Shown here in pieces: positions 4,491 to 43,278 of a stretch of 64,000 nucleotides of DNA (positions within the stretch are counted from its first letter, which is position 1; the number at the start of each line of letters is the position of its first letter). Where the stretch lies: positions 303,797,536-303,861,535 of the forward strand of contig OY282560.1 of the NCBI GenBank assembly GCA_958295665.1, given 5' to 3'. Source of the stretch: Tipula vernalis. Its lineage: Eukaryota; Arthropoda; Insecta; Diptera; Tipulidae. The translations under genes were made by a program, and so were the position numbers. The notes beneath the pieces were generated by a model. It searched no databases, was not told where the DNA came from, and worked only from the letters and a program-made list of their open reading frames with translations.

Positions 4491-7400
4491 TTATTGTTTT
4501 TTTATCCTTTTTATTTTATTTTTATTCCTTTTAATATTGTTACTGGTTTTAAAAGTTTTTAGAGTTATTTCCTTAATTTTTGTCTCGACCCCTCTTGGTT
4601 GACTTTTTGTTCTTATATTTGGTTTTACAAAGACAGATTGGTTATTTGTTAATATTGGGGGTTCTTCTTTTGCACTGTTAATTTTTGTTATTTTATTTTT
4701 TGTTAATTCTAACTTATCACCTACATTCTTAAATATAATGTTTGCCTGTGCTTGAATTTCATTTGGGGACAAAAGATTGCTTTGGTTAAAAATAACCTCA
4801 TTTGGCGTGAAGCCAGTGGATGAATGCACAGAACTATTGTAAAGTGCCACAGCGAGTTCTATGGCCGTTAGTGTATCGGCTTTTGGGACTTTATCCTTAT
4901 TAGTATTATATATTTCAATAATAGTAGAGTGAGTCTTCTCTATTTGTCCGTTCGACTCAGAAGAGGATGTGTATTCTAACCTGACGTTAAGTCTGCTTAG
5001 ATATTCTTTGAATTGTGCCGATTGGAATGTCGTTTCGTGATCAGAAACGATACTATTTGGTATTCCAAATAGTGTGAAATATTTTGTGAGTGCCGATGTT
5101 ACATCCACTAAATTTTTAGTGTTGATATGAACCATTTGAAGGTGCTTTGAAAATGCGTCTATTATTGAGAGAAAACTAATTTTGTTGATACTGAAAATAT
5201 CAATGTGCACTCTTTCTAGAGGTTTTTTTGTAATTGGCCTCGGTGAGATTTTTATGTTATAGGGTCGACGATCATATTTGTGTGTGTTACACACGTTGCA
5301 TGCGTTAACATGGCTTTTGATTTTATTGGTGAAGTTTGGGAAGAAATAAGACCTTCTAATTTGGCTTTCAACCTCTTTTATGCCTCTGTGGGCTCGCTCA
5401 TGCTCTTTTATTATAATGGCGTTTTGACGGTCTGGACTTTTCACATCCTCGACCATTTTGGTAACGAAAACCAAATGGCCATTTTGGGAGAATTCTTGTT
5501 TAAAACATTCCTGAATTTTACCGTATAGGATTTCAGGTGCGAGAATTGCGGATTGTTTTCCGTTGTGGTATTTTTTTATGAAGTCTGTAATATCTTCCAG
5601 TTCGAATGAGTTCTTCGAAATAATTATTCTATTAAAATTTGGAAATATGTTTTCTGTGATTATTACATCTAAGTTTGAAAGTTTAAAAACTAATTGGTTC
5701 CTGTAGTAATTGAGAGGTCTTTCTGAAAAATGAATAAAATACTCATCCGATGTATTAGCAGAGTGGATTGTGTCCATCTCGCTACTATTTTCTTGAAGGT
5801 TTTCTGCAACTTCTTCAGGTCTATTTAACACACTATCTGAAGCTTGGTTAACGTTTAGTTCAGTTGTATTTCCTTTTGGCATTCTGCTAAGCGCGTCTGC
5901 GACGACGTTGGCTTTGCCTTCTTTATAAATGACATTGTAGTCATAATTTTCTAATTCAAGTCTCCATCTTAAGATCTTCGAATTTTTTTCGGAAGACTTT
6001 ATGAACGTCAGTGGCTTATGGTCAGTCACCAGCGTAAATTTGTTACCGTAAAGGTAAGGCTGGTACTTTTTTACTGCCCAAATAATCGCCAGTGCCTCCT
6101 TCTCATTGGTGGCGTAGTTGATTTCTGTCTTATTCAGTGTCCTTGATGCAAATGCGATAGGCCTTTCGATGTGATTTTGGACTTGAGAGAGAACTGCGCC
6201 TAATGCGTATTCTGAAGCGTCCGTTGTCAGAATAAAAGGTTTATTGAAGTCAGGATACGTAAGTATCTGATCTGTAGCTATCGTTGCCTTAAGCGTCTCG
6301 AATGATTTTCTATATTCCTGGTCAGTCATATCTAATGGCACATCTTTTTTTAGATACTTGGTCATATTTTTGGCAATTTTTGAATAGTCTTTGATAAATC
6401 GCCTATAGTATCCCGATAGACCCAGAAACTGTTTTATTTCCGTAGGAGTTTTGGGTAGTGGCCATTCTAAGATCTTTTTTATTTTATCCTTATTAGGTTT
6501 TACGCCATCTTGAGTTATGACGTGTCCTAAGAACTCCGTTTCTTTTTTCAAAAATTCGCACTTATCAAGCTGAATTTTTAGATTAAATAGTGCTAATCTT
6601 TGTAAGACAGTTTTTAAATTGTTAATATGAGATTGAAGATTTTCTCCTAAAACAACTATATCATCCAAATAGACGTGACATTTTTTTCCCAACAACCCAT
6701 GTAATACATTATTCATGGCCCTTTGAAAAGTAGCAGGCCCATTTTTCAGACCAAAAGGCATCCGGCAAAACTCGAAATGACCTTTGTCAGTTGAAAAAGC
6801 GGTTTTTTCCTGCGACTTAACGTCCATGGGAATCTGATGAAAACCAGACTTCAAGTCAAGAGTAGTGAAGTATTCTGATTTTCCCAGATTGTCTAAGATC
6901 TCTTCTATTTGGGGAATTGGGTATTTGTCATCAATTGTTTTTTCATTCAATTTCCTATAATCAATGACAACCCTAACTTTGCGAGTTCCAGACGCATCGG
7001 CCTTTTTTGGAACCACCCAAATTGGTGAGGAATATGGGCTATTTGAGTTTTTGATGATGCCGCTGTCCAGCATTTCTTGCACTTGGTCCTCGACATCTTT
7101 TTTAAATGTGTGAGGATACCGGTAGGTTTTCGTATAAACTGGTATCTCGTCCCTAGTTTGAATTTTATGTTTAATAATTGTTGTGGCTGATAGTTTTTCG
7201 TTTTGCCGCAACAGTACTGATTGGTTTTCAAAAAGTGTGTTGACAAGAGTTGTTTTCTCCAGTTCAGCTAGATGGCTTGTTCTGATTAACTCATCTATAG
7301 CTTGTTTACTGATTAGTGAATTTCCGGATATCGGTATAGGTTTCAACGTCTCAAAATTATTTATTTCTAATTTTAGTTTTGGTAAATGATATGGTGGATC

Positions 7401-10315: not shown

Positions 10316-12742
10316 TTAAATAAATCCTGGTTTTATACACTTTGTACCATCCGGTAAGGTATGTAATACAATTGGCTTTATAAAAGATGAGTTCAGAACA
10401 ATAAAAATATATAAATCAGATATAATTGAACCGTTCGTAATATACACTTGATAATGATCATCATATCGAGTTATGTGTACTTCTTGAGTAACAAGTATAA
10501 CATTCGAATTTTGATAAACAATATCAGTTATTTTTTGCAACACCTTTTTATGTTTATTAAAGATATAGAAATTGTTTTTGTAAACAGTTCCTTTAAATTC
10601 AAGTGATACAGCTGACGAATATTCTTTTATGGCATCAATCTGGAGAAATTGTTTCAACTCTGCGTAGAAAGGTTTTGTTTTCATTTCAGAAGGGTCACAT
10701 TTTATGAAAGAAGCATCTGAACCTAACCCATCGTTTTTAAGTATCCGTAAAGCAAATTTCATTGCACATTTTTTGGCAAGCGAAAGTGAGAGATTTCTCC
10801 TTGAAAATGTAGAGTTCGTGTAATTTTTCATTTCACGGTGCTTCGACTCATACCTCATGCACCAATAATGTATTAAAGGCCCTGATTTCTTGATAATATT
10901 AGGATAATGGGTTAAGAGATGGTGTTTTGGTTTGATGTTATCCTGAAACAAAGTTTCATAAAGTAAATTATGTATGGAGATGTTTTTATGAAGCCACTCA
11001 ATATCTTTACTGGTAAATGATTCTACAAGTAAATTATGTGTTATATCTTGTAAAATTATTATGTACTTCCACACCCTGTCATTTTTTGGAACAAGATCTC
11101 CCAAAAATAATGTAACATACTTTAATAAACACACACTTTCCCTAGCAGAAACATGTAATTTTTTCTTTTTAATATGATCGATTTTTAATGGCGCTCCACG
11201 TGAATTAATCTCCATTTCACCAAAATCAAAATGTTGGTATCTATAATTAAATGTCTCCAAAGTGAAAAAGTTCTTTACAATTATAAAATAATGAAGAGAA
11301 TTAGCTAACCCATATTTTATTATTCCTTCGAATACATCATGCATGATGTCCACGCAAAAATTAGATACAACATGAAAACTTTCAATTTCATTAAAAATAG
11401 AATCTTCCAAAATTCCAGTGGCTAAGTAATCATTTTTATATACGTCAACTTTATAATTTTCCTCATTTCTCAGAAGCATAGGAGACTCGCAACTATGCTT
11501 CGACATATCAATTTTAGAAACTTTGCAAAAACGGCAACATTTGTTATGGCTAAATGATTTGGAGAAACCTAGAATTGAATTCAATCCCAGATTATCCCCA
11601 ATTACAAGGCCTAGAACAAAATATACAGTAATAATCTCGTTAGCTATTGTTAATGAAACGCCATCTGTTTCAAGTTTCTTAATTGTCTCAATTAATTTTG
11701 CTAAACATTTTCGAACTCCAAATCGTTTGAGGTCTCTTGATTTGAGAAACATGGCAACAAATATGTTTTCAGCCGAAGCATATTTGGAAGGTAAACTTGG
11801 AAAATTATAATAAAAAGCTGCCAGTGACTGCGCTCCCGATTTCGAGCCAAGAGGATTTCCAGGTTCGAAATCGTCATAGTATAAATGGTAAGGTATTACG
11901 ATTTTTTCTTTAAAAGATATAATTTTTTTTTGCCATAACTCACCTTGAACAAAATTTGAAATTTTGCCAAGATTATTTGTAAAATCTATTTTCTTTTCTA
12001 AAAGGTTAGAAGTATTTTCTATCGTTTGATATAATATAATGGCTGTTCAAACATTTTTTTTATTTGATGCTCGATAGGCATTAAAACTCCTTCTATATTA
12101 TTAGTATCCAAAACAGATACACTTTTTCGCACTGTTTCTTTTATTTCAGAATTAATAAGAAATTTTTCAGGTGGTTTATAAAAATTATAATCTGATAAAC
12201 TTTTTAATATTAAATATTCTGAGCTCGAAAGGATTCGGAACAAAATTTTAACATTTCTTCGACTGTGGGTTGAATAATCGAATCAATAAAAGGAATTAGT
12301 TTTAGTAATTCAGAAAACATAACGTGAAGTACATCCGTTAAATTTTTTAGAAAATGATCAAGTAATGTGTTTGTAACATTACTATGGCTTGACATTTCAG
12401 TAACGAAAGCCAGTATCGATTTGTTGATTTTTTCTTTGAACTCTACAATGTTAATATTCAAAGCTTCTTGAGGTTCGTTTAAAATTTGTTCAGAATCAAC
12501 CTCACAAATTGGCTCAAAATTAAGTATAGGTATATTAGTATGTTTGGTTTCAGTGTTTAATGTGTGAATGAAACTGTTTACCGGGAGAGTATTTTCCTCT
12601 TTCTCGTGTTTTTTAATTAAATGTCTCTTAAACGTTGATATACATATTTCGAAAAACTGATGAAAATGAATGTATTTTAAATGTGATACATATACAGTTC
12701 AGTTGTTTGAAACTGCTGAGAACATAGAGAACAATTTAACAT
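10316..12742 (-). pseudogene. Zinc-finger TNP2/CACTA-like transposase, frameshifted
   Basis: Transposase-related protein of a family widespread in arthropods; I place it near TNP2/CACTA by its GDNLGLNSILGFS, CRFCK, DIMHDVFEG and HLLTHYP...W..RYE segments, with moderate certainty. From ATG 12740-12742 the reading gives an N-terminal C2H2-like finger (CSLC ... H...H), a variable linker, then the conserved DDFEPGNPLGS and FASAEN-type block running into the long 3' frame. At least three single-base frame changes are needed, near 12690, 12225 and 12030, so this copy is not translatable as it stands. The 3' frame (10316 to about 12015) is open for some 560 codons. It would have bound element ends and catalysed transposition. 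Confidence 0.68.
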
Positions 12743-12952: not shown

Positions 12953-14107
12953 TTATCGATATCTAAAAATAAAACTAATAAAATCCCAAACTTTTTGACT
13001 TTCAATGGGATATTTTAAGTTGAATACAAAAAACATTTTAAAACAAATATCAAGACATTTAACAAAATCGTCAAACTTGTAATAAATACCGTCAAAAATA
13101 ATTGAGTATTGGTAATGATTACCATCCGAAATAACAGCAATTAATGGTTGCAGCGTGATGTTATAATTAAGATAATGCTGCTTTTTCTCTTCGATTATTT
13201 TCTGTAGTTCGATCATAGAGCCAACTTCTACCGCGAATGATTTTATAGAATTTTGAATTGATGGTTTCCACACGGTTGTTTTCAATTTACTTGTGAGTCT
13301 TGTTGAAGGTTTTAAAATGTAGTGTATGTACTGGAACAATTTGTAGTTTTTGTAGTCTGTAAATAAAATTGAAAAGTTAATATTAATATAATATTAAAAG
13401 TTATTAACATTGAAACTTAGCTCAATATAATATGAAATATTAAATTACCTTCGTCTTTTGGTAGATTTTTTATTTCTGCCAGAACGGCTTTGTTTTTAAT
13501 TTTGCTGCTTAAAATACCAGGGATCTTCCTGATAAACTTATCCCATTTATCATATAATTTAAAAGATTTGTCCGGATAAATGATGTCAAAATCAAGTTCG
13601 ATCTGAAAATGAATTTATACAAAATAAATACAGTGGCGGATATTGAAACCCGGACAGCAAATAGAAATGCAATTTTTCCGTATGTTTCGGAGGGGTACAA
13701 AAATCAAACAATGAAACTGAGATTTTTTAGGTGTCCAGATTTCTATGTCCGGTACTGTATATACCAAATAAATAAATTTACCAATCTAAAGGCTGTGGCT
13801 GATTTTAAAAGCATGCATGTACGATAACCATTTCTTATTTTCCTCGAAATCGACTTCTTCTTCTGATAAAATTGTTTTTAAATGATAAAAAGTTAAATAA
13901 ACAATATTGCTTACTATTTTATGAATTTCAAATTAGCAAATCATATTTTATACCTAAGTGATCGTTTATTTCTGGTGTTGTTTCGTTTGAGGAACACGAT
14001 GCAGGCTGATTTTTATAGAGACCAACTTTTTTCAATTTGTACGAGCTATTGCGGAATTTGTTGTACAACTTCCCCGATGGTTTTTTTCCTCCCTTATAAT
14101 AGAGTTC
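12953..14107 (-). pseudogene. Accessory gene of element 1, exons 6-9
   Basis: Four exons bounded by consensus-like splice sites: 13954-14107, 13782-13862, 13449-13602 and 12953-13356. Exon phases agree across junctions except in the second of these. That exon is 81 nt, while its counterpart in the relative at 25252-25478 is 227 nt; the loss leaves the W-L-S start and F-R-L end in different frames. The last exon ends with the family-like IFDGIYYKF...VDICFKxFF.L...YP segment. I know of no defined function. By position beside a transposase it may play the role that TNPA plays in plant CACTA elements, which is inference. The other exons lie beyond the P element at 21207-22200. Confidence 0.65.
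13631..13757. mobile_element. 127-bp MITE with TA duplication (Tc1/mariner-like)
   Basis: Starts CAGTGGCGGATATTG and ends with the inverted form of CAGTACCGGACATAG. The 26-bp terminal inverted repeats agree at 20 positions. TA flanks both ends (13629-13630 and 13758-13759). It sits in the intron between exons 7 and 8 of the accessory gene and has no coding capacity. Confidence 0.75.
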
Positions 14108-16727: not shown

Positions 16728-17819
16728 TTAATGGCTTAAAACTTTCAATTTTTTGGATGCCTGAGTATTTTTAGTTGTTGGATTTGGTTTTTTATTTTTA
16801 CTTTGGTCTTTTATTACCCACTTGCAATTTTTGCGAAGCAAAACTAGTAAAAAAAATTTTAATAAGACCGTAATGTGGCCAAAGCATGGTTCAGATTCAC
16901 TGGGTAAAAATGATTTAAATTCACTTTTTAATTTTGCTAAACAGAAATTAGTCATTTCATCACAAATATTGTTTATGTAGCTTTTTTGATTAAAAAATAT
17001 TTCAAAAACTTTAACTAAAAATTGGGAAACTGCAAACAATTGTTCTGATGGAGCCTTTAAAGATCCAAAATTGGAATTATGAAGATTTTTTTTATAATTT
17101 TTTTCATGAGTAAATATATCGTGAACATTAATATGTTCATCGGTTTTTAAAAGTTTTTCTGTGCATCGATCACAGTCAATTTTTTTATAAACACAGTACC
17201 CAGCGTAGTAAGCAATAGCATTTGTTGTCAACGTACTAAATTCTTCCAAATTCAGCAACATTTCAATAGAATTCGATCCTTCATTTTCTTCCGGAGCTTG
17301 TAATTTTAAACTTTTATTGTATTCGTCTTTAAATTGTTTCCAGTTTAGTTTTAAATTTTCTGAATCGTCTGGTAAACAATTAGAATGTAGCGAATTAAAT
17401 AAAATTTTCATTACTACAATATTTGCGTAGTGCACTCCAATTTCATAACACGACGGTGTGAAATTATATCCGCCTTTGCCCCTCAATGCAGAAAAGAAAT
17501 TTTCTAATGCATCTTGGTTAGTCTTACCCGTTAATATAAAATCAACTGAATGCTTAGAATTTAAATATTGCACCAATTCTAATTGAGCAGATACGGTTAG
17601 TTGAAAACCCTTTATAAACTTAAAATAATTTTGGCTACTTGACAAAATTTTTAAGTTTCCTAGAAATTCCAAGCTTTCCTTTAGATAAGTGTATATTTTA
17701 TTATTAACTTTGAGTGGCTGTTCATATGGATTCTTCGAAAAAAAGTTGCGGCAGTTAAGGCAATCAAATATATTATTGAATCGTTCTATAATAATTGCCG
17801 TAGGTATAGCATGGTCCAA
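16728..17819 (-). pseudogene. P-type transposase, C-terminal part
   Basis: 363 codons in the same frame as the upstream THAP half, separated from it by one TAA at 17841-17843 with coding-like sequence continuing across. It contains GFQLTVSAQLEL and LENFFSALRGKGG, the block that holds the third catalytic acid of P transposase (E106 of this segment). The tail is basic. Together with the upstream half it would make a protein of about 890 aa, close to known P/THAP9 transposases. Confidence 0.85.
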
Positions 17820-17840
17820 ATAGTTTTCAAACGTTTCTGG

Positions 17841-19406
17841 TTAAGTTTTTAAAGTAGTCCGAATAGCACAAGAAACAGTGTTGCTTAAAATTTGGGCAGC
17901 TAGTTTTACACTCATTTTCTGGAAACTATTGGGATCCATATGATTCTTTGTTATTTTGTGCAACATTTTAACCTTTTGATTTTTTTCTTGATCGTAAATT
18001 AATTTTACTACGTTGAAGTCTGTGATACCGTAGTCTGAATGATGAAACTGATGTTTTATAATGGCATTTCTTGCTGATTTAAGCAAATGTGGTGGGTCAT
18101 ATTGCACAAAAATTGGTTTGTTATTTACTAAAATGTATGGTTTTTCCAGTGAAACACCAAAATGTTTATATATCGCAACGTTAGTTGGGGCCTGATCACA
18201 GGTTAACATAACCACTTCTAAGTTTAGGATGTCACTACACAATTTTATGTTACTTAAAATAAGCTCTGAAAGTTCACTAACACTGATATAATTATTAATT
18301 AGAGTATAATTTAGTACGTGTTTCCAATTCCCCACTAAACCACGTAGCATAAAAAAAATTGCTGAAGTGGCTAACTGATTCGACCTATTATTACCATTAT
18401 CACAGTAACCTTCAACTTTATTAGTTAAAGGATTTACTACTAAATCTTTTCTTATGGCAATTTCGTCGAAAGATAAAACACATATCCGCGATGTTGTTGA
18501 CATATTTAAAAACAAATGTTTTAATTGATCTAACAAAACATAGTTTGTTCCCGGTGAAATGAATTTTATTGGTGACCATGAATATATTGACGAAATGGAG
18601 GGTAATTTAAGTTGAAACGTTGATTTTAAATATTTATAGGTCGTCGCAGATTTATAGTATAAACATTGTGCAAATGTTTTGTCGCTTTCTTTATAATAGT
18701 AATCTTCCTTTAAGAGAAGTTTACACACATTTCTTGTAGGCTCGTTTGCCGATTTAACTTGATCAATCATTTCATCCACACTATTATTTCGAATTTTTTT
18801 ATATTTCTTAGTTAAATTATTAAATTTTCTTTTCAAATTAATAAATTTAACTCGGAATTCTTTGATTTTCTTTTGCGCTAGAATTAATTTTTTTCTGTAT
18901 ATAAAACTATCTTTTTTATTTTGCTTACACTTCCGACAAATATAATCTTTGTCGTTTTTTATTTCACAATGACCGCAGTTGAGTTTATTAATGATGTTTA
19001 AGAATTCCACATCCTCATCCAAAGGATCAGTTTGTGTTATTTGTGATGTAAATTTGTTTAAATTACTAATTGATAAATTATCAAAACTATCAATATCGAT
19101 TCTCTCATCAACTGGTGTTTGTATGTTATCAGATAGTTCAATATCAGAATTATTTGTTAAATTCAAAAACGGTACCGCATTTTTAGTTAACCGACGATTT
19201 TCAGTGATACATCCACTCAAGAAATGTCGTTCACAGACATAGTTATGTTTGTTTGTCAAAGTTTCTTTTGATAAACCAATTGAAGTCATCCAGACCAAAC
19301 TTCTCTTTGGGTCGCTTGGAAATTTAAAAAATTGCGAGGTGGATTTGGATGATGATGCTTTACAACATGGCACTACACATGTATTTATTCTTTTTGAAGA
19401 TGCCAT
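17841..19406 (-). CDS. P-type transposase, THAP-domain N-terminal part
   Basis: 521 aa. The THAP zinc finger has C10, C14, C58 and H61, the conserved W39 and the AVPF box at 77-80; it would bind the element ends. A second cysteine cluster (143-160) and a basic coiled segment (165-208) follow. RNase-H-like catalytic acids are D314 (LSFDEI) and D404 (LTCDQAP). The frame ends at an in-frame TAA at 17841. If translated alone it would be a DNA-binding protein lacking the last catalytic residue, like the truncated P repressor. Whether this stop is a decay mutation cannot be told from the sequence. Confidence 0.88.
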   Translation of the reverse strand: MASSKRINTCVVPCCKASSSKSTSQFFKFPSDPKRSLVWMTSIGLSKETLTNKHNYVCERHFLSGCITENRRLTKNAVPFLNLTNNSDIELSDNIQTPVDERIDIDSFDNLSISNLNKFTSQITQTDPLDEDVEFLNIINKLNCGHCEIKNDKDYICRKCKQNKKDSFIYRKKLILAQKKIKEFRVKFINLKRKFNNLTKKYKKIRNNSVDEMIDQVKSANEPTRNVCKLLLKEDYYYKESDKTFAQCLYYKSATTYKYLKSTFQLKLPSISSIYSWSPIKFISPGTNYVLLDQLKHLFLNMSTTSRICVLSFDEIAIRKDLVVNPLTNKVEGYCDNGNNRSNQLATSAIFFMLRGLVGNWKHVLNYTLINNYISVSELSELILSNIKLCSDILNLEVVMLTCDQAPTNVAIYKHFGVSLEKPYILVNNKPIFVQYDPPHLLKSARNAIIKHQFHHSDYGITDFNVVKLIYDQEKNQKVKMLHKITKNHMDPNSFQKMSVKLAAQILSNTVSCAIRTTLKT

Positions 19407-22200: not shown

Positions 22201-22669
22201 TTCAAGTGTTACCTAATGAAGCGATTACTTTTAACTATTATTACCTGTTGTTGTTATAACAACTATAAATCAATCTAGAAAAATAAAGCAAAAGTCCCGA
22301 GTATATTTTATGGAAACAAAAACAATCAAAATAGCGATTTGTGAAATGTTTATAGCGTTTTATTTGTATTTTTTAAAAATTTTAAAATTATAGCATGTCC
22401 GACATTTTTAGTTTATTTTTTTAAAAATTTTGTTTAAAAATTGAATTTTACGTTTGAAAAGTTTTCATTTTAGCCAAAAAAAAGTCGTAATTTTGATAAA
22501 TAAATTAGAATCATCGCCCTATTCATCAAAAATATTGCATCGTGGATTTTATACCACCAAAAAATTAGAGCATGCCCGACATTTTTGTTTTATACTTTTC
22601 TCTTTTTATCGCAAGAAAATTTTTTCTATTGCTCTAAGTCTCAACAAAAAAAGTTGGAAAAACATTGTT
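22201..22669. other. AT-rich upstream region of the accessory gene
   Basis: No gene. A motif of about 20 bp, TTAnAGCATGnCCGACATTTTT, occurs twice (near 22389 and 22564) and may be a subterminal repeat of element 1. Confidence 0.45.
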
Positions 22670-23059
22670 GGAACGTGTAAATCACGCATTAAACACAAAT
22701 TGAAAAACTAAAATTAAGATAACGTTTCCTTTAAGAAGATTATGTTTACCGTTTACTTTACTCGCTAGATATTAATTTTACTACACAATATAATCTATAT
22801 CAGAATCACAAAATAATAGCATCAATTACTAATTTCAAATTATTGTTGCAACTAAAAATATTTCAATATGGTCGCCATTTTGCATGCGTTATGATAATTA
22901 ACATTACAGAAATCTATAAACAACTATTTTGTAGGCAATAAACCTCAAATTTTAATTAAAATTAATGAATTTTCACCTGTTTACATTCATTACTTATGGC
23001 AAAAATTAATTAATTTTAATGCACAAAAATATTTATGTTTAACTATTTTTTTTTTACTG
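22670..23059. repeat. Tandem repeat unit 1, left part
   Basis: The left two thirds of a repeat of about 0.6 kb (markers AACTAAAATTAAGATAACG, CAATATGGTCGCCATTTT, AATATTTATGTTTAA). It breaks off at TTTACTG, and its continuation is found at 30898 after the CACTG-ended element. Two further units follow at about 31141-31707 and 31708-32355. Confidence 0.82.
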
Positions 23060-25100
23060 CACTGAGAGAATTCGTATTCTATTATTAAGAATATCTAATA
23101 CTCAAATGCACAAAATAAAAATTTAACAATTTTCAAGTCTAAAATGTATCACATCAAGATCTGTATGCACAAATGAAAACGAAATGCCAATTTTTCTACA
23201 CAATCGTGCTTTTACAAATTGATTATTATATTCTCCATTTGACAGGATGCAAAAATACATAATTGAAGACTAGTACGCCGTAATAGAGTATTACCAATTT
23301 GAATTGGAGACTTGTATGCTTCAAATGATAATTTTATCAATTTTATAAAATTATGCAGCATTTAGTCACGATTGAAGTAAAAAATTTGAAATTAAATTGA
23401 GAAAATTGGTTTTGATTGGCCATTTTAATATAGTTTTGGTTTGAATCATTTATTCTCAAATAAATTCCATTGACAATTAATAAATTAAAAAAAACATCAC
23501 GAATTTTAGAAATTATGCAACATTATTCTTGTTTTTGCTAAACTGTTAGAATCAAGTTAAGAAAACTAATGTCTTTCAATATTTGGCGAATCATGTTTAC
23601 AGCATTGCTACATAGCACAACTGTGAACGTTTTCCTAAAAACGTATTTCTATTTTATGATTAAATCATCATCAGTTTAGCCACAAATGAATAATATGGCA
23701 ATTTCTGGCCTAATTTATTTAGTTTTCCTTAATAAGCATAAGTTTCTCAGTATACGTTTTGACAATTTATTACTTCAAAAAAACAATGACCAGAACTTTG
23801 AGTCTATAATGACGGGTTTTGTGTTGATACTGTATAGTGTATAAGGGTTCATTTAGAATTTTTGTTAATTAAATTCCACGCAGTAACAATATTTTCCTTC
23901 TTAATAAATTCTGAAGTTCCAAATAGCGTATGTATATACCTCATACTGCAGCACCGTATATGCATTTACTCTTTATTAACCACTGTCAGGATTGATGTGA
24001 AAAGTAGTATGATGTATGGTTACTGAAATGAATTGAAGGTTTTAGGAGCAATTGAGCGTTAAGATTTTGTAACATCACTTTTTTTTCGATATTCGACCAA
24101 TTATTGAATGCTGTCCTAAGTAAAGTTGAAAAAATCGATTTTTGTCGAATATCGGAAAAAATGTTATACAAAATCTCTGTCCTGGTATAAATGGAATGAA
24201 TGTTTAGATACTATAATTGTTACATTGAGATTCACCACCTATTGAAACTGATGTGATTCATTACAACTGGCCAATTTCCATTAATGGTTTCAATATCGAA
24301 ATCCGCAGAACGGCAATGGAAGCCATTGAAATGTTTTGTTTGAAACTGCACTCATATCGTTTGTAGTGAAATAGATAATGGTAAAAAACACATAAACGGA
24401 TTAAAATTATAATACGCATAGTGATTTAGGAACAACATATTCCATATATTTACATATACGCCAATTAATCATTAAATTATAAATAAGTACAGATGGTTTT
24501 CATAGTTGTTATTCAGCATTGCTCAATCTGTATAAAGAAACGTGTTCATATAGGTATGCATAACTAGAATCACATCAAGAATTTAATTTTTCATTTCTTA
24601 GCATTATTCATAATTTTAATTTAATCAACAATTTACAACTACTAAATTTGACTGTAGTAGTCTCAGTTTAAGATGATACATATCCAATGAAATGAATTAT
24701 ATAAATACATTATATACTCCAGTGATGTATACTAATATCAATATGAAACTAAATACGTACATTCATGCAGGTTTTTCTTGCCTTATCCTTAAATTGAGAA
24801 TAACATCAATAATTTGAAACTGAATTATCTTATGTTTTTGAGAATACTATTCATACTATCGTTGGAACAACATATCAATTACATTTATCTCTTGTTTTCA
24901 TACAGTTTGTTTGAAGAATTCAATCAGTGAAGACGTGTGTTAAAAAATATTTTATTTTTATATATGGGGAATTATTTTTCAAATCGGCCACCCCCTCTCC
25001 TCTGCTCATTTCAATTTTGGAGAAAAAAATTTTTTCAGCACACGAAAAAATTCGTCAAGAAGTCTAGTTTTTGATATCGTTAGGGGTTCAAAAAAGAAAA
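23060..25100. other. Left end of element 2, non-coding
   Basis: About 2 kb after the CACTGAGAGAA terminus with no gene. Short related words (TACTCAAATGCACAAA, TTCAAATGATAA, AATTGAGAA, CACATCAAG) recur and may be subterminal binding sites like those near the right end. Confidence 0.5.
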
Positions 25101-25104
25101 AAAA

Positions 25105-25769
25105 AATCTAACCTCAAAAAAACTATCTAAAGTGAGAGGTATATTTACCAGCCGTAAACGCCGAAGTTCTAAATCATCAGGTGAATATTGAATACTTAAT
25201 TAAAAAATTTTAAAATTTATGAAAATTAATTAAAATGAATTTATTTGGCAGACGAGTCATCAAAATTTACAAGTGAAGTTAAGGTAAGTGAAACGCATTT
25301 AGCGAACAAGAAGTGGCTAAGTTGCTTTCACGAACCGTGGGAAGTCGTCGAGTTGAAGTGGCAGTCAACATTTGTGGGAAGACAAGAGGAACAACACAGA
25401 TTAAGCTCGCCATCGTTAAAAATTACTAGTTTTCTGAACGAGTGTGGCCTTTTTAAATCGGACAAAGGGTTTAGACTGGTAGGAAGGGGCATATTTTCAT
25501 ATTTAATTTATACTTATAATAATATAGTAATTTTTTTCCAGGTCGATATAGATTTTGAAAATCTATCTTTGGTGATGGCAGTGGGACGGGATACAGAATG
25601 GGAATACGTTACGGTGTTTGATGGCATTCTCTACAAATTTTCTTCTTTGATGGCCGCTGTCGATTGTTGCCTTAAACTGTTCTTCGTCTTTGACATAAAA
25701 TACCCGTTTGAATCGGTCAAGGTATGGACATTCATAAAACAATTTTTTTATAAAATAACAAATTTTTAA
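25105..25769 (+). pseudogene. Accessory gene copy 2, internally deleted
   Basis: Three exon-like pieces with splice borders: about 25105-25180, 25252-25478 and 25542-25769. The second begins with the NKKWLS segment and ends F-R-L; the third begins DIDFEN and jumps directly to the VFDGILYKF...VDCCLKLFFVFDIKYPFES end. Compared with the copy at 12953-14107 it lacks the D-K-W-x-KF exon and the start of the last exon, and I see no exons 1-5. The intron after F-R-L is at the same place in both copies. Protein function unknown. Confidence 0.65.
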
Positions 25770-26319
25770 ATGACTGTAAATGAATTAAAAATTAATTTAA
25801 ATTATATTAATTATTATTATTGACAATTATTTATCAATTAAAACAATTATGAATTAGATTAGATTATTATTAATTGATATTACTCGTATGAATTGATAAT
25901 TATATTTTTATTAAAATAATAACTTAGAAATAAAACTGTATAATATAAAACATATTTTAGTTGAGAATAATGAAGTAATTGTAATTGCACAAAACATAGC
26001 AACAAACAAAATCATTACAAAATATATTTAACTGAGAATATAATTCATACCTAAAAATCATCTATTTCACTATGCAATTTTTTGGTTATTTTTGTTATTA
26101 ATAAGTGATAATACAACACTGTTGTATTGTCGCTGTGGGAAAAACGTTGTTATGGCAATAGCCTACTATTTATTATTTTTGGCGATTTTTATTAATAAAA
26201 ATAAATTCATTAGAATCAAAGTAACACACAACAAAAACAAAATTCTTATATAACTATCTGTCAACTTATGCAATTACAAAATATTTGTGAATCAGTATTG
26301 ATTACTGCTTGATACAGAG
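25770..26319. other. Spacer with a short palindrome upstream of recombinase 1
   Basis: AT-rich. A 17-bp near-palindrome (ATACAACACTGTTGTAT, 26111-26127) runs into GTTGTATTGTCGCTGTGGG. A related string, GTTGTATTGCTGTTGAAAAAA, recurs at 29571. The two could mark the edges of a recombinase cassette. Confidence 0.4.
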
Positions 26320-27510
26320 ATGGATAATTGTGATAATCAAAGATGGGGAGAGTGTACAAATAAAAAAATCGAAGAGTTAATACTCAATAGTGTTCCTTTA
26401 AACACGGAACGAAATAAGAAAAGTATTTGGAAACAGTTTATGAATTTTTGTGCAACACGTCAATACACAATTGAGCGAGACACATCAATTGATATGCTCG
26501 CGTCATATTTAAAAGATTATGCATGCAATATGCGTAAGTCTAACGGAGAAAATTACAAGGAAACTGTAATTAAAACTATTTGGAATACGCTAGCGAAAAT
26601 GCTTCAAGAAAAATATTATGCAGAATTTAAAATAAAATTTGATCCATTTCGTGATATTGAGTTTAAACAGGCAAGATGTGCCAGAGATTCAAAACGGAAA
26701 CAACTTCAAAGTGAACCGAACAAACGGAAATTAAGTGCTGTAGCTTTTACGTCAAATGAATCTACTTGTATGCAAACGTATTGGGATGAAGATAACCCTT
26801 ATGGACTTCAAAAGAAATTCTTCAACATTGTTGCGACAGAATTAGCGTGGCGTGGTAACGAAGCCGCGTTTGCTTTAACTCATTATTTTAAGAGAATTAC
26901 AGACCATTTCGGTAATGATACGGGACGAATTGAATATAACCCTATATTCACCAAAACTACACAAGGAGGTGCAAGCCGTTGTGCTAATAGTAAGTGGCTC
27001 ACGCAAAATGTGAATAATATCAACGTTTGTCCCGTACGATTATTCAATAAATTAATGAATAAACGGCCAAATCATGTAACCTCCGAAAGATTGTTTCTTA
27101 CACCCAATCCTTTCTGGAAAAATTCAACTGGAAGGTGGTATAAAAATCTTCCTGTAGGTGTCAATGAATTATCAAAATGGACCAAACAAACGGCCCAGGC
27201 AATTGGAATTGATGTGCAAAATAATAAAATCACCAATCATAGTCATAGATCAACTGCGGTTACTATAATGGCAAATGCGGGTATTTCAGATCAACAATTG
27301 ATTAAAATAACCGGCCATAGCAGTGCTAATTCAATTCAGCCATATTTAAATATGCAGCCAGAGCAACACAACAATATTCTAGAAAAGATGCGAGGAAGTT
27401 CTGCTGAGCCGTCAAAAGCTGTAAACCCAATCGTTTCATCTAAAATTAACAACAAAAATGAAGGACAATTCCGATTTGAAAATTGTACCTTCAACAACTG
27501 TCAGTTCTAA
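26320..27510 (+). CDS. Crypton-like tyrosine recombinase 1
   Basis: 396 aa, uninterrupted. An N-terminal helical core-binding domain (about 30-140) precedes a catalytic domain with R178 (LAWRG), H307-x-x-R310 (HSHR), H333 (TGH) and the nucleophile Y342 (PYL), the full R-HxxR-H-Y set. The sequence style (DxxDPF, ARDSKRKQLQ, Q-G-G-A...W) fits animal Crypton and related domesticated recombinases. The end carries NCTFNNCQF, a short NCxF repeat. Such enzymes cut and rejoin DNA through a 3'-phosphotyrosine. The neighbouring gene at 28070 is a clear paralogue in the same orientation. ATG 26320 is in good position; no intron is needed. Confidence 0.85.
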   Translation: MDNCDNQRWGECTNKKIEELILNSVPLNTERNKKSIWKQFMNFCATRQYTIERDTSIDMLASYLKDYACNMRKSNGENYKETVIKTIWNTLAKMLQEKYYAEFKIKFDPFRDIEFKQARCARDSKRKQLQSEPNKRKLSAVAFTSNESTCMQTYWDEDNPYGLQKKFFNIVATELAWRGNEAAFALTHYFKRITDHFGNDTGRIEYNPIFTKTTQGGASRCANSKWLTQNVNNINVCPVRLFNKLMNKRPNHVTSERLFLTPNPFWKNSTGRWYKNLPVGVNELSKWTKQTAQAIGIDVQNNKITNHSHRSTAVTIMANAGISDQQLIKITGHSSANSIQPYLNMQPEQHNNILEKMRGSSAEPSKAVNPIVSSKINNKNEGQFRFENCTFNNCQF

Positions 27511-28069
27511 ATATAATATGTTTCAATGGTATTCTTGCATAATAAATAATTGTTATTACAAATATAATCTTTCATGTTGTGAATTTAAGTTTTATCTTTC
27601 ACACCAATTCATTATATTCTCCACCCAAATATAACTCGTGGTCCTCTTAAGAATCGATAATTTTTTCCAAATGTCACTCATGCGTATCCCAAGCTTTAGA
27701 AAATGCAACTCGTGCTGCGCACTCGTTGCATTTTCGTCGCTGAGATACGCATTCGTGACATTTGAAAAAAATTATCGATAATAAGCGGACCACTAGTTAT
27801 ATTACGTCTGATAATTCAACTTGTGTAAAAAAATTCATAGTAAAATGTATCAAAGTAGCTGTTTGCTAGCGGATATTTTCGAAAAAGGAAGGAAGGTGTG
27901 ATGCAAGTGGATATTTTTTTCGGATATTTTTTTATTTACCTTTTTCAATTATTTTATAAGTTTAAATAATAAATTTCTATATAACATCAAAAACCCATGA
28001 GATTTCTGTCACTTATTAAAGAAAAGTTTATTATTTTGGTTGCTTTAAAATAATAAAATTTCCAAAAAT
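27511..28069. other. Spacer between the two recombinase genes
   Basis: Contains the 27631-27800 palindrome and AT-rich sequence, with no other frame. Confidence 0.6.
27631..27800. repeat. Palindrome 1, 120 bp after recombinase 1
   Basis: Imperfect inverted repeat of about 82 bp per arm, with blocks such as ATCGATAATTTTTT, CAAATGTCAC and ATGCGTATC paired in both arms. The apex (27708-27725) is ACTCGTGCTGCGCACTCG. It can fold as a 4-bp stem with a TGC loop, flanked by a symmetric TC/TC internal loop and then AAC/GTT. Confidence 0.88.
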
Positions 28070-29248
28070 ATGCCGTCGAAAACGCGTTTTGGAAAAATCT
28101 CGAATGAAAATATTGTAAAGGAAATCGATAAAACTACGCCTGAAAATACTAAGAGAAGTAAATCATCGATTTGGAATCAATTTGATGCATTTTGTAAAGA
28201 AAGAAGTTTCGATTTAAAGACAGAACAAAAAATTCCTGATGTCGCTATGATTTTAATGGATTGGGGGTTTAACATGAAAAAGCAAAACGGAGAAGACTAT
28301 AAAGAGTATGTAATTAAGACGATGTGGAATACAACTGCTAAAATGATTCAGGCTGATTATTTTATTAAATATAAAGTAACTTTCGATCCATTTTCCGATA
28401 TACAATTTAATGAAGCACGTAAAGCCAGAGATTCGAAACGAAAGCAGCTGCAAAGTATAGTTGAAAAACGAAAAGAAAGTGCGATATCATTTACGAAGGA
28501 AGAAATAAATAAAATGGCCGACGCGTGGGATGAAAATACACCGATGGGACTATTAAAATTTTTTTTCCACGTAGCGGCATACGAGTTAGCTTGGAGAGGG
28601 GGAGAAGCTGCCAATTGTAAAATAAATTTCTTCAAAACAACAGCATTAAGTGATGGAAGTTTTTCAGGGAGGATTGAATATAATTGTATTTTTTCGAAAA
28701 CTTGCCAAGGAGGGGCAAAAAAGTGCAGTGACAGTAAATGGCTCATTGAAAACATAGAAAATCCAAACTTGTGTCCAGTTAGATTATATCAAAAGATATT
28801 AAGCAAACGCTCTCCAGAGATTACGAACGAACAATTTTTTCTTACCCCTAATCCCTTCTGGGAAAAACCAAATTCCAAAGGATGGTACAAAAATATGCCG
28901 ATAGGAATTAATGAGCTTCTGAAATGGACTAAAGTATCCGCAGAAAAAATAGGACTAAATATAAAAAATAAAAAAATTACAAATCATTCACATCGTTCAA
29001 GCGCAGTTTCCAATTTGATTAAAGGCGGTATAAATGAACAAGAATTAATTAAAGTAACAGGACACTCTTCTGCAAGCTCAATAAAACCTTACCTACAAAT
29101 AGATGAAAGCCACCATTCCAACATTATAAAAAATATGCGCCAACCAACTATTCAGAAGACGTCCACTTCTTTAGACACTATTCAGTCCACATCAACAGGG
29201 CAAATAATTTATAATAATTGTGTTTTCGAAAATTGTTCCTTTAAATAA
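28070..29248 (+). CDS. Crypton-like tyrosine recombinase 2
   Basis: 392 aa, uninterrupted, paralogous to the gene at 26320 along its whole length with many identical blocks (ARDSKRKQLQS, LAWRG, LTPNPFW, TNHSHRS, TGHSSA). Catalytic set: R176, H306-x-x-R309, H332, Y341. It ends NNCVFENCSFK. Two intact but clearly diverged copies suggest both have been kept under selection, possibly as a heterodimeric pair; that is inference. It is followed 103 bp later by palindrome 2. Confidence 0.85.
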   Translation: MPSKTRFGKISNENIVKEIDKTTPENTKRSKSSIWNQFDAFCKERSFDLKTEQKIPDVAMILMDWGFNMKKQNGEDYKEYVIKTMWNTTAKMIQADYFIKYKVTFDPFSDIQFNEARKARDSKRKQLQSIVEKRKESAISFTKEEINKMADAWDENTPMGLLKFFFHVAAYELAWRGGEAANCKINFFKTTALSDGSFSGRIEYNCIFSKTCQGGAKKCSDSKWLIENIENPNLCPVRLYQKILSKRSPEITNEQFFLTPNPFWEKPNSKGWYKNMPIGINELLKWTKVSAEKIGLNIKNKKITNHSHRSSAVSNLIKGGINEQELIKVTGHSSASSIKPYLQIDESHHSNIIKNMRQPTIQKTSTSLDTIQSTSTGQIIYNNCVFENCSFK

Positions 29249-29971
29249 ATTTTCCTTATATATTGCTCAATAATAAAGTTCCAAAATAAAATTTTTAATC
29301 AAAAAAATGTCTAATTTATTAACTTTTTTCTCTTTTCTCGTTGAATTATCTCAACAAATACAACTCGGGCTTTGAGTTAGCCGGGGATTTTTTTATTTTT
29401 GCACTCGTAATTAGTATGCGTAGCAATTTAACTCGACAAAACTTTTGTCCAGGCAAAAACACTCGAGCTGCGCTCTCGTGTTTTTTCCGTACAAGTTTTG
29501 TCTCATTAAATTGCTACGCATACTAATTGTTCGTAAAAATAAAAAAATATCCGGCTAAATCGAAGCTCTTGTTGTATTGCTGTTGAAAAAACATTACTAG
29601 AGTACCAGATTTTTAAATTAAATGAAGTAGTTTTAAAATTAACAATATTGAGGAAAACTAAGAATGGAAAACCATATGCAAAATATAATTTATTGTAATA
29701 TACAAAATTTACATAAAATATACAAAAATTTATGTAAAAATTATAAACTTATTATTATTTAATAATAAATTAGAATAAGAACATTACGTTATGTTTGATT
29801 ATAATAATAAATAATTTATTTTATTTTAATAAATAAATAGTAAAAAAATTAATTAAATCAAGTATTTTATTTATTTTTATTAACATTTAAACGCTCACTA
29901 TGGAAATATTTTATTCTTAAATGGAGAATTACTAACCGTATAATAATCGTCAATATTTCTGATCAGGGCCA
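29249..29971. other. Downstream region of recombinase 2
   Basis: Holds palindrome 2 (29352-29585), then AT-rich sequence without a gene. Confidence 0.6.
29352..29585. repeat. Palindrome 2, about 100 bp after recombinase 2
   Basis: Imperfect inverted repeat of 234 bp with long paired blocks (AATTAGTATGCGTAGCAATT, GACAAAACTT, ATTTTTTTATTTTT). The apex (29461-29478) is ACTCGAGCTGCGCTCTCG, the same architecture as palindrome 1 but with changed pairs. A stray frame of 61 codons across it is an artefact of the palindrome. Confidence 0.9.
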
Positions 29972-30026
29972 TATATTAACTGTATATATAAGGCCATAAC
30001 ATATATTAACTGTATATATAAGGCCT
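29972..30026. repeat. Short tandem duplication (30-bp period)
   Basis: CATATATTAACTGTATATAT followed by AAGGCC occurs twice in a row. Confidence 0.7.
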
Positions 30027-30057
30027 TGTTCTGATACAAGAATACGAGAATGGAAAT

Positions 30058-30530
30058 CATAATCTCAAAATGTGAAGTGGAGTCTCAAATAATTTCTACT
30101 GTATTCTAAAATCAACCAACATCCCAAATTGAGAATTCTGGTTTCAATAACATCTTCTGTATTCTCAAAACAAACCTTACCCAACATGTCAAATTGAGAA
30201 CAGTAGTTTCAATAACATCGCCCTTCATCTCAAATGATATCATATCCTGTCAAATGTTTATGATTTTTAGTCTCAACTTGAGGAAACTTTTCTTAATATT
30301 ACTGCTTTTCGTCTCAAATGAAAACGCACTCGCTCAAATTTTGTGAATATTAGTCTCAAGTCATGTACAGTAAGCTCAAATGACATGAATGTTGTTCTCA
30401 AATGATTTCTTATCAAGAGAATTTTCTTATCATTTATGAATATTAACATCAACATGAATATAATTTTTCATCAATCAAGCAGAAAAAAAATATAATCTTG
30501 ATCACTTTAGCCTCAATTATTACAAAATTA
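30058..30530. repeat. Subterminal TCTCAAAT repeat array of element 2
   Basis: About a dozen copies or variants of TCTCAAATGA lie between 30061 and 30515, for example near 30080, 30226, 30311, 30372 and 30396, with a few in reverse (TTGAGAA). Arrays of short repeats just inside the termini are a known mark of CACTA elements, where they bind an accessory protein. The region has no gene. Confidence 0.7.
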
Positions 30531-30897
30531 TTCATATTTTGAGCAAACGTAATAAAAACTATTGACGATTTGCAAACATATTATTCCTAAATTAATTTTT
30601 TTATTCTTAAAAACAAGCTACACTTTCATGAATTGAGATTACTTTTTTGAACACATTTACAATTTATAAACTACAAAATTTTTATATTAAGAGTATTAGA
30701 TTTAAATGAAGAATCGTACTTTACTTCGATTATACATTTACTTCTCAATTTTAGCATTTTTATAAACCATGAATTATCAAGGTTTTTTTAAAATTATTCT
30801 CTAAATGAGACAAACTTTGCTTAGCGCATATTTAAGCAGCTTTTTTGCTCAATTTCATACCTATTGTAATCAATATGAGCAATCATTTCTTTCAGTG

Positions 30898-32355
30898 TGT
30901 GTAATTACAAAATCAGCTTCTATTAAAATCAAAAACAACTAAATTAAAGTAAGCTACGCGTGCACGCGTATCCTTTCTGTTACACCATTTACACACACAT
31001 GTGCAAAATAAGCTTCAACCGCTTAATTTAATATGAAATATAATGAAACGTCGACATAAAAAGAAAGAAGAATATAATCATTGCGCATGAGTGATGAATA
31101 AGAAAGAAATTCATCATTTTCAACCAATACAATCGAGCAAAATCACAAATTGGAAAACTAAAATTAAGATAACGTTTCCTTTAAGAAAATCATGTTTCCT
31201 GTTTATTTTACTAGCTATGTAGATATTAATTTTACTTCACAAAATAATCTATATCAATCACAATCACAAACTGATAACATCAATTATCCATTCCAAATCA
31301 TGCGCTGCAACAAAAAATATTCCAATATGGTCGCCATTTTGCTTGCGTTATGAAAATTAATATTACAGAATTCTATAAATAACTATTTTGTAGACAAGAA
31401 ACCTCAAATTTTAATTAAAATAATTAAATTTTGATCTGTTTACACTACAGTCATTACTTATAGCAAAAATTAATTAATTTTAACGCCAAAAATATTTATG
31501 TTTAATTATTTTTTTTTACTGTGAAATTACAAAATCAGCTTCGATTAAAATCAAAAACGCAAGCAAGGCCTCGCTTAATTGAATACGAAATATAATAAAA
31601 CCTAGCCGTAGAACGAGAGAAGGATATTTGTATTGCCCATGAGAGATGAATAAGAAAGAATTTCATTTTCAAACCACTACAATCTAACAAACAAAAGTAC
31701 CACGCGTAAAACACAAATTGAATAACTAAAATTAATGTAACGTTTCCTTTAAGAAAGATTATCTTTGCCATTTACTTTACTTGCTAATATTCATATTACT
31801 ACAAAACACAATCTATATCATCACAATCACAAAATAATAGCATCAGTTACTAATTTCAAATTATTGTTGCAAAAACAAATAGTCCAATATGGTCGCCATT
31901 TTTCACGTGGTATGGCAATGAACATTACAACCAAATTTTATATAAATTTATTTTGTAGGCAATAAACCACAAATTTTAATTACAATAATTAAATTTTCAC
32001 CTGTTTGCAGTTTTTAATTATAGAAAAAACTAATTAATTTTAACAGAAAAATATTTATATTTAATTATTATATTTTTTTTACTGTGCAGTCACAAAAACA
32101 GCTTCTAGTAAAATCAAAAAATGACTAAAAACTAAATTAAAGTAAGCCGTGCGCGTGAACGCAAATCCTTTCTGTAAAACAATGTTACACACATGCACAA
32201 AGTAAGCAAGGCCTCGCTTAATTTAATACGAAATATATATAATGAAACGTAGACATAAAACAAGAGAAGAATATTGTTATTACCCATGAGATGAATAAGA
32301 AAGAATTTCATTTTCAACCACTACAATCTAACAAACAAAAGTGGTACATGTACAC
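30898..32355. repeat. Tandem repeat, rest of unit 1 plus units 2 and 3
   Basis: Unit 1 resumes at TGTGTAATTACAAAATCAGC. Units 2 (about 31141-31707) and 3 (about 31708-32355) repeat the same marker order with moderate divergence; spacing of the AACTAAAATTAA marker is about 566 bp between units 2 and 3. No open frame is conserved between units, so they look like a short non-coding satellite or dispersed repeat. Confidence 0.82.
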
Positions 32356-43052: not shown

Positions 43053-43278
43053 TTTGGTCTTTTGGATGACGCATCCAAAGATTATAAAAAGTGCAGATGT
43101 TGTTTTATTACCCTTTAAAGTTTGCCGTTTTTTAATTTTGTGTTCAGGTAGTTCATGTAAACACCCCTTTTACATGAACTACCTGAACACAAAATTAAAA
43201 AAGAGCAAACGTTAAAGGGGTAATAAAACAACATCTGCACTTTTTATAATCTTTGGATGCGTCATCCAAAAGACCAAA
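43053..43278. mobile_element. 226-bp foldback within the nested Harbinger
   Basis: Nearly perfect palindrome with arms of about 105 bp: TTTGGTCTTTTGGATGACGC pairs with its inverse at the far end, and the centre is near 43165. No coding. It could be a small foldback MITE; I see no clear duplication at its ends. Confidence 0.85.

Follow-up and report, generated by a model that had tools for sequence, protein, structure and literature searches.

Two Crypton-type transposons with exact ends and a two-part target site, probably nested in a CACTA-type element of Tipula vernalis

The Cryptons of animals (CryptonA and CryptonI) are described in the survey of Kojima and Jurka (2011, PMC3212892) as short elements whose sole product is a DUF3504-related tyrosine recombinase, with insects among their hosts, and no terminal repeats are reported there, a comparison of 50 copies in Rhodnius included. 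The Cryptons of fungi and stramenopiles (CryptonF and CryptonS), as presented in the same source, bear direct repeats of 4–6 bp at their ends which are thought to be the substrate of recombination. Cryptons are in general low in copy number, according to a curation guide (PMC8969392), and the DUF3504 genes ZMYM2-4, QRICH1 and KCTD1 derive, by the 2011 survey's account, from Crypton recombinases (PMC3212892). A search by title and abstract found no paper on the target sites or ends of animal Cryptons, with most subscription journals and the Repbase reports lying outside its scope. The subject of the present work is a block of two recombinase genes inside a CACTA-type element of Tipula vernalis, within a stretch of 64,000 nucleotides (NCBI GenBank assembly GCA_958295665.1, contig OY282560.1, positions 303,797,536 to 303,861,535 of the forward strand), referred to here as the window and numbered from its first base. 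To judge from the sequence, the block very probably consists of two separate Crypton-type transposons, A and B, each of which most likely inserted itself at a site of the form TATT-N5-GANAAT, with B likely to have been the first. An earlier prediction from the letters alone (the original prediction) had taken the locus for a CACTA-type element carrying a pair of tyrosine recombinases in place of its transposase, and had offered two explanations: its first, that a Crypton cassette had entered a CACTA element, agrees with what is reported below, and its second, a hybrid with two mobilisation chemistries, does not.

Nested Cryptons are an ordinary arrangement, and a hybrid would have been remarkable. 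What is worthwhile in the locus is the sharply defined ends, the hairpins and the target site of two families with many near-identical open copies, because the 2011 survey of animal Cryptons found no terminal repeats (PMC3212892). Animal Cryptons are little understood, and the two families are a good system for this open question: exact ends, a two-part target and 3' hairpins together make the mechanism of animal Crypton integration directly testable, and the findings bear also on the DUF3504 genes named above. The two units and their genes are as follows.

26034 to 27809, plus strand: Crypton-type transposon A, 1776 bp, GAGAATATAATTC...TATATTACGTCT, its ends common to further copies
26320 to 27510, plus strand: tyrosine recombinase A, 396 amino acids (PF00589, 3.6e-9; PF12012, 2.9e-7)
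27810 to 29584, plus strand: Crypton-type transposon B, 1775 bp, GATAATTCAACTTG...TGTATTGCTGTT, its ends common to further copies
28070 to 29248, plus strand: tyrosine recombinase B, 392 amino acids (PF12012, 1.4e-11; PF00589, 7.3e-6)

A and B lie head to tail and directly abut, with a similar organisation, and both recombinase frames are open, as the original prediction had them. The two proteins are 50% identical, and residues R178, H307, R310, H333 and Y342 (A numbering), which we take from the motif to be the expected catalytic set, are invariant between them. In recombinase A both PF00589 and PF12012 score above the Pfam cut-off; in recombinase B PF12012 does so and PF00589 falls slightly under (26.3 vs 27.1 bits). 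With PF12012 above cut-off and the motif residues in place, both are recombinases of the Crypton/DUF3504 kind, and among open reading frames (ORFs) of at least 120 amino acids inside the units there is neither a reverse transcriptase nor a DDE transposase, the only other such ORF being a frame of 132 amino acids antiparallel to recombinase B. A and B thereby resemble animal Cryptons; unlike the fungal Cryptons, which have a GCR1_C domain in the survey's description, they gave no match to that domain in Pfam (PMC3212892). The two proteins have similar cysteine motifs at their C-terminal ends (NCTFNNCQF in A, 27465–27507; NCVFENCSF in B, 29206–29245), with no Pfam match. Searching solved structures with recombinase A returned a single insignificant match (E=0.18), NCBIfam gave only weak matches far under cut-off, and viral contigs yielded no relative. 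The ratio of nonsynonymous to synonymous substitution (dN/dS) between A and B came out at 0.46 and 2.84, and is uninformative because synonymous sites are saturated.

Both units occur at many places in the genome. In the searches 105 of 387 candidates were scored for A and 105 of 460 for B, and the counts of matches are accordingly lower bounds. For A there are at least 86 matches (94–100% identity, two of them being one split copy), at least 59 of them full-length, with 54 of the 59 free of stop codons; for B there are at least 46 (89–100% identity), at least 33 of them full-length, with 26 of the 33 free of stops. When borders were read for 50 further copies, 28 of A and 22 of B, nearly all fell at identical bases and between unrelated flanks. 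The 5' end of A reads GAGAATAT in all 28 copies and its 3' end TATATTACGTCT (once TATATTACGCCT) in 27; the 5' end of B reads GATAATTC in 21 of 22 and its 3' end TGTATTGCTGTT in 19 of 22. The expected end was absent from four right ends (L040, L074, L118 and L134) and one left end (L131), and exclusion of these five copies left 45. The right-end test demanded the element's own last bases and would miss copies with a different last base; in the four copies concerned the whole right end is absent at the place read. Weak matches to the block in L023 and L004 proved to be low-complexity sequence and were set aside.

The nearly equal length of A and B, their shared organisation and their exact abutment might suggest that they are parts of a single two-gene Crypton that inserted once. 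That reading is scarcely credible: among the 132 matches listed the window holds the sole A–B pair at tandem distance, the next closest pair (the split copy aside) being 4.5 kb apart and both A, and B follows in none of the 27 A copies whose right end was readable, nor does A precede any of the 21 B copies whose left end was. The 'pair' of the original prediction is consequently right as to the two genes, but the units belong to two different Crypton families that, among those 132, are adjacent only here.

Each unit also carries a long hairpin next to its 3' end.

27628 to 27803, no strand assigned: 3' hairpin of A, DNA fold z-score -16.1, none of 200 shuffles as good
29357 to 29578, no strand assigned: 3' hairpin of B, DNA fold z-score -17.6, none of 200 shuffles as good
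26110 to 26128, no strand assigned: small palindrome near the 5' end of A, its arms those of the B 3' hairpin

The hairpins of the window units span 176–222 bp, with 6 nt between the outer stem, AATAYAAC/GTTRTATT, and the end of the unit in both A and B. Pairs of these arms within 260 nt of each other are found three times in the window, in every case inside the recombinase block. The small palindrome at 26110–26128 is present in all ten A copies read far enough; these ten copies start at GAGAATAT and include it, by which a third, miniature unit at about 26033–26134 was ruled out. By comparison with the animal Cryptons of the 2011 survey, as described there (PMC3212892), A and B are unlike in having exact ends, a 5' GA-N-AAT core that is also that of the target, and hairpins of 176–222 bp. 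Elsewhere in the window, at 43053–43278, there is a long palindrome made of two nested inverted repeats (89% and 94% complementary) without the Crypton hairpin arms.

The features of the element in which the block lies are these.

23060 to 30897, no strand assigned: CACTA-type element, 7838 bp, with a TG duplication on both sides
25245 to 25769, plus strand: remnant of the CACTA accessory gene, an ORF of 174 amino acids, 95% identical to sister copy L013 over 174 amino acids
26025 to 26033, plus strand: left half of the original Crypton target, TATTTAACT, unbroken in L013 and fitting the target matrix
29585 to 29590, plus strand: right half of the original target, GAAAAA, unbroken in L013

Elements of the CACTA (EnSpm) class have inverted ends of CACT type and duplicate 2–3 bp of target, and the element at 23060–30897, which without its insert would measure 4287 bp, shows both such ends and a 2-bp duplication, as originally predicted. 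Its left terminus at 23060 is CACTGAGAGAA and its inverted right terminus, ending at 30897, is the near-match CACTGAAAGAA; the consensus of the ends is CACTGA(G/A)AGAA, and the 64-kb window has no CACTG[AT][GA]AGAA sites apart from these two termini. The proposed rejoining of the flanks was likewise borne out: joined minus one TG, they align across the junction to the adjacent uninterrupted repeat unit at 81% over 644 bp, with 34 gap positions and none at the junction, the host repeat units from which the empty site is taken lying at 22660–23059, 31150–31520 and 31700–32080. A 2-bp duplication is seen in all eight CACTA elements with both ends readable (window TG, L011 TA, L012 TT, L013 CT, L031 CA, L009/L010 TT, L015 TG, L034 TA), a count that excludes L030, whose right end is lost, and L016, of which one end was fetched. 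Genome-wide (1.27 Gb) CACTGAGAGAA is found 686 times vs 165 for the reversed control, and among the places listed (contig C1) five pairs are spaced identically by 9,954 bp, which suggests recent activity of a CACTA family of about 9,965 bp. Full copies of that length are represented by L009/L010, with both ends, and by L016, which is nearly whole; they contain an accessory gene as well as a frame of 820 codons, which shares 45% identity with the window ORF at 10316–11752 and has a weak Pfam match to DUF4218 (E=0.0096, under cut-off). We presume this frame to be a TNP2-like transposase, which these copies would then share with animal CACTA elements. The accessory remnant at 25245–25769 is 50–66% identical to the exons of L009, and its kinship to the ORF at 12953–13336, which the original prediction had noticed, holds at 46% over 56–57 amino acids. 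Spongebob, an animal CACTA element, also makes a 2-bp target duplication as its description has it (PMC4298943), but its ends start with CCC where those of the window family start with CACTG, and the window copy is without most of its transposase gene.

For comparison of related copies, sequence was taken around 25 CACTGAGAGAA sites (10 kb each) and at two shorter pairs, all on contig C1. Five of the copies belong to the same subfamily as the window element (L011, L012, L013, L030 and L031; 88–99% identity over the main aligned pieces), and the block, far from being always present between these CACTA ends, is absent from all five; nor were there any recombinase matches in 27 CACTA-anchored loci over 3.1 kb. 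Four of the five sisters have the region of the insertion point deleted. L013 keeps it and, when aligned, reads TATATTTAACTGAAAAAACATTACTAG without interruption, whereas in the window 3551 bp separate TATATTTAACT from GAAAAAACATTACTAG. By alignment to L009 the insertion point lies at about codon 783 of the 820-codon transposase frame. L013 and the window element have both lost the greater part of that gene; the CACTA element was therefore probably non-autonomous before the block arrived. Contrary to the original prediction, the recombinases do not stand in for the transposase: most of its gene had been deleted beforehand, and the block sits in what is left of its C-terminal part. The window element would be mobile, if at all, only with transposase from full copies such as L009, the likely source. 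A separate insertion is seen in L013 at 5972–6902, presumably a mariner-like element, which ends 11 bp to the left of the Crypton insertion point and has a TA duplication and an open stretch of 245 codons.

These sister copies bear on the idea of a hybrid, that is, a CACTA lineage that adopted the recombinase pair and moves by two chemistries. Both recombinase genes are open within intact CACTA ends, and the fungal composite of mariner and Crypton, MarCry-1_FO, offers a parallel in which a DDE-type transposon has a Crypton recombinase inside it; as the survey presents it, four near-identical copies show that composite to move as one, whereas here the composite is found at one locus only (PMC3212892). 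No CACTA–Crypton composite was found at several loci, the 132 matches listed including one A–B pair. The absence of the block from all five sisters refutes the strong form of the hybrid, and A and B are found, each cleanly bordered, at numerous sites unrelated to one another, which is the pattern that the original prediction had itself named as the mark of a nested Crypton. We give the hybrid next to no credence, and the arrangement is likely to be one of simple nesting.

The 45 copies with both ends define the target consensus TATT-N5-GANAAT, in flanks of 71% A+T. Its left half has T at -7 most often (42 copies), then A at -8 (36) and T at -6 (31); in its right half GA at +1/+2 is invariant (all 45), followed by A at +5 (44) and, with 41 copies each, by A at +4 and T at +6. 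Directly to the right of the 3' end GANAAT is present in 37 of 46 copies, and GATAAT in 25 of these 46, against a background of 21 GANAAT in 3,866 flank positions. The 5' end of the elements, GA(G/T)AAT, shares the GA-N-AAT core with the target, and A and B thus show what is expected of Cryptons, a short direct repeat shared with the target and no terminal inverted repeats. A fixed TGA core was considered and dropped, the base before GA being T in just 29 of 45. The 6-bp GANAAT is like the 4–6 bp direct repeats of CryptonF and CryptonS; the bipartite target of A and B has no counterpart in the description of those groups that the available survey text gives (PMC3212892). The half-sites, TATT and AAT(A/T), are short and inverted, with eight bases between them. 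Sites of tyrosine recombinases typically comprise two inverted repeats of 11–13 bp with 6–8 bp between them, according to the same survey (PMC3212892), and TATT-N5-GANAAT has the spaced half-site layout expected of such an enzyme. One B copy (L065/L066) lies within a satellite whose uninterrupted form, TTGCTGTGACAATTTTC, is found at L006. The joined ends of B contain inverted arms, 8/11 at 9-bp spacing, and in the joined ends of A other spacings and positions score equally well; such arms are suggestive only.

It might be argued that the units were inserted by a transposase-like or repair route, the preference for GA and AAT then owing nothing to a tyrosine recombinase; points in favour are the shortness and AT-richness of the half-sites, the restriction of exchange to GA and the fact that no circle was seen. 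Against this, each unit codes for a recombinase-family protein in which the expected motif residues are present, and the half-sites of the target are inverted and spaced by eight bases, so that we consider such a route very unlikely.

The order of the two insertions was approached through site strength, with a target matrix trained on sites of both families and each of the 45 copies scored leave-one-out. Their used sites score from 1.0 to 16.3 bits (median 11.0), the original site in the CACTA element scores 9.5, the left border of B 14.9 and the right border of A 1.1. As the most likely course of events, B would have inserted first, between TATTTAACT and GAAAAA, and its first bases, GATAATT, would have completed a better site at its own left border, where A then inserted. 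This order is favoured because of site strength. The converse, in which A came first and B followed at the right border of A, gives an identical final sequence, and other copies have used sites of 1.0 bits, but the right border of A is poor (1,250 of 127,944 window positions score as well or better) by comparison with the left border of B (one of 127,944), and we regard A-first as unlikely. The median score is reached at 11 of the 127,944 window positions, corresponding to some 200,000 sites in the genome on both strands; a tandem pair therefore needs no special attraction. A rough expectation, for 132 insertions among 132 residents, is 0.1 tandem pairs, and one was observed.

For each unit the inserting enzyme would most likely be the tyrosine recombinase that it encodes itself, linking a circular form of the transposon to a TATT-N5-GANAAT site; the circle is assumed, as it was proposed for Cryptons in the 2011 survey (PMC3212892), by analogy with prokaryotic elements. 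In the copies read, exchange resolves at one GA dinucleotide and always in the same direction, because the left border keeps the element's base at core position 3, and because the base before GA comes from the target on the left (T in 29 of 45) but from the element on the right, where it is T. At position 3 the right-flank base of A differs from the element's G in 25 of 27 copies and the left border has G in 28 of 28; the right flank of B departs from T in 4 of 19 copies, and in those the left border keeps the element's base. A double-strand exchange over an overlap of 6–8 bp with random repair should leave mixed outcomes. Integron cassettes are exchanged by one strand, and a similar reaction, in which the long 3' hairpin would fold out next to the crossover in the manner of integron cassettes or Vibrio SE elements, is a possible if doubtful explanation here; it would include that every insertion leaves a target-like site at its left border, tandem growth being thereby built into the system, a part of the proposal that is no less tentative. 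Biased repair or a very short overlap would also give the GA pattern. The Vibrio SE elements are comparable in being elements of tyrosine recombinases whose border sequences point to a directional, strand-biased exchange, and differ from A and B, as they are described in PMC9345347, in being bacterial and larger, with two recombinase genes per element and with targets in which no inverted-repeat structure was detected.

Several observations weigh against insertion of two separate Cryptons in the order B then A. No insertion activity, circle or excision product was observed, and an exchange confined to GA fits an overlap of 6–8 bp poorly. The empty site was seen in one sister copy, L013, and all the sisters come from one chromosome. 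Scoring of 105 of 387 and 105 of 460 candidates leaves room for further A–B pairs. The final sequence is silent as to order; training of the matrix on both families, together with the GATAAT that B itself brings, favours B-first somewhat; and the weakest used site, at 1.0 bits, is as low as the right border of A.

At another place in the genome (G000:C2:333996162-334003788; L137, L051/L052 and L085/L086) two copies of A stand around 3976 bp of satellite, made up of 23 head-to-tail copies of a 173-bp monomer, and the outer flanks are not satellite. The array starts and ends at one monomer phase, which is the Crypton insertion point. Such an array might have arisen when a circle containing A and satellite recombined with a copy of A already in place, or it might be a mark left by the recombinase itself. 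In the window, 16728–19406 contains two ORFs of one gene with THAP and P-element-type transposase domains (Pfam), and the stretch around it, which the original prediction assigned to a neighbouring TNP2-like element, probably comprises more than one transposon.

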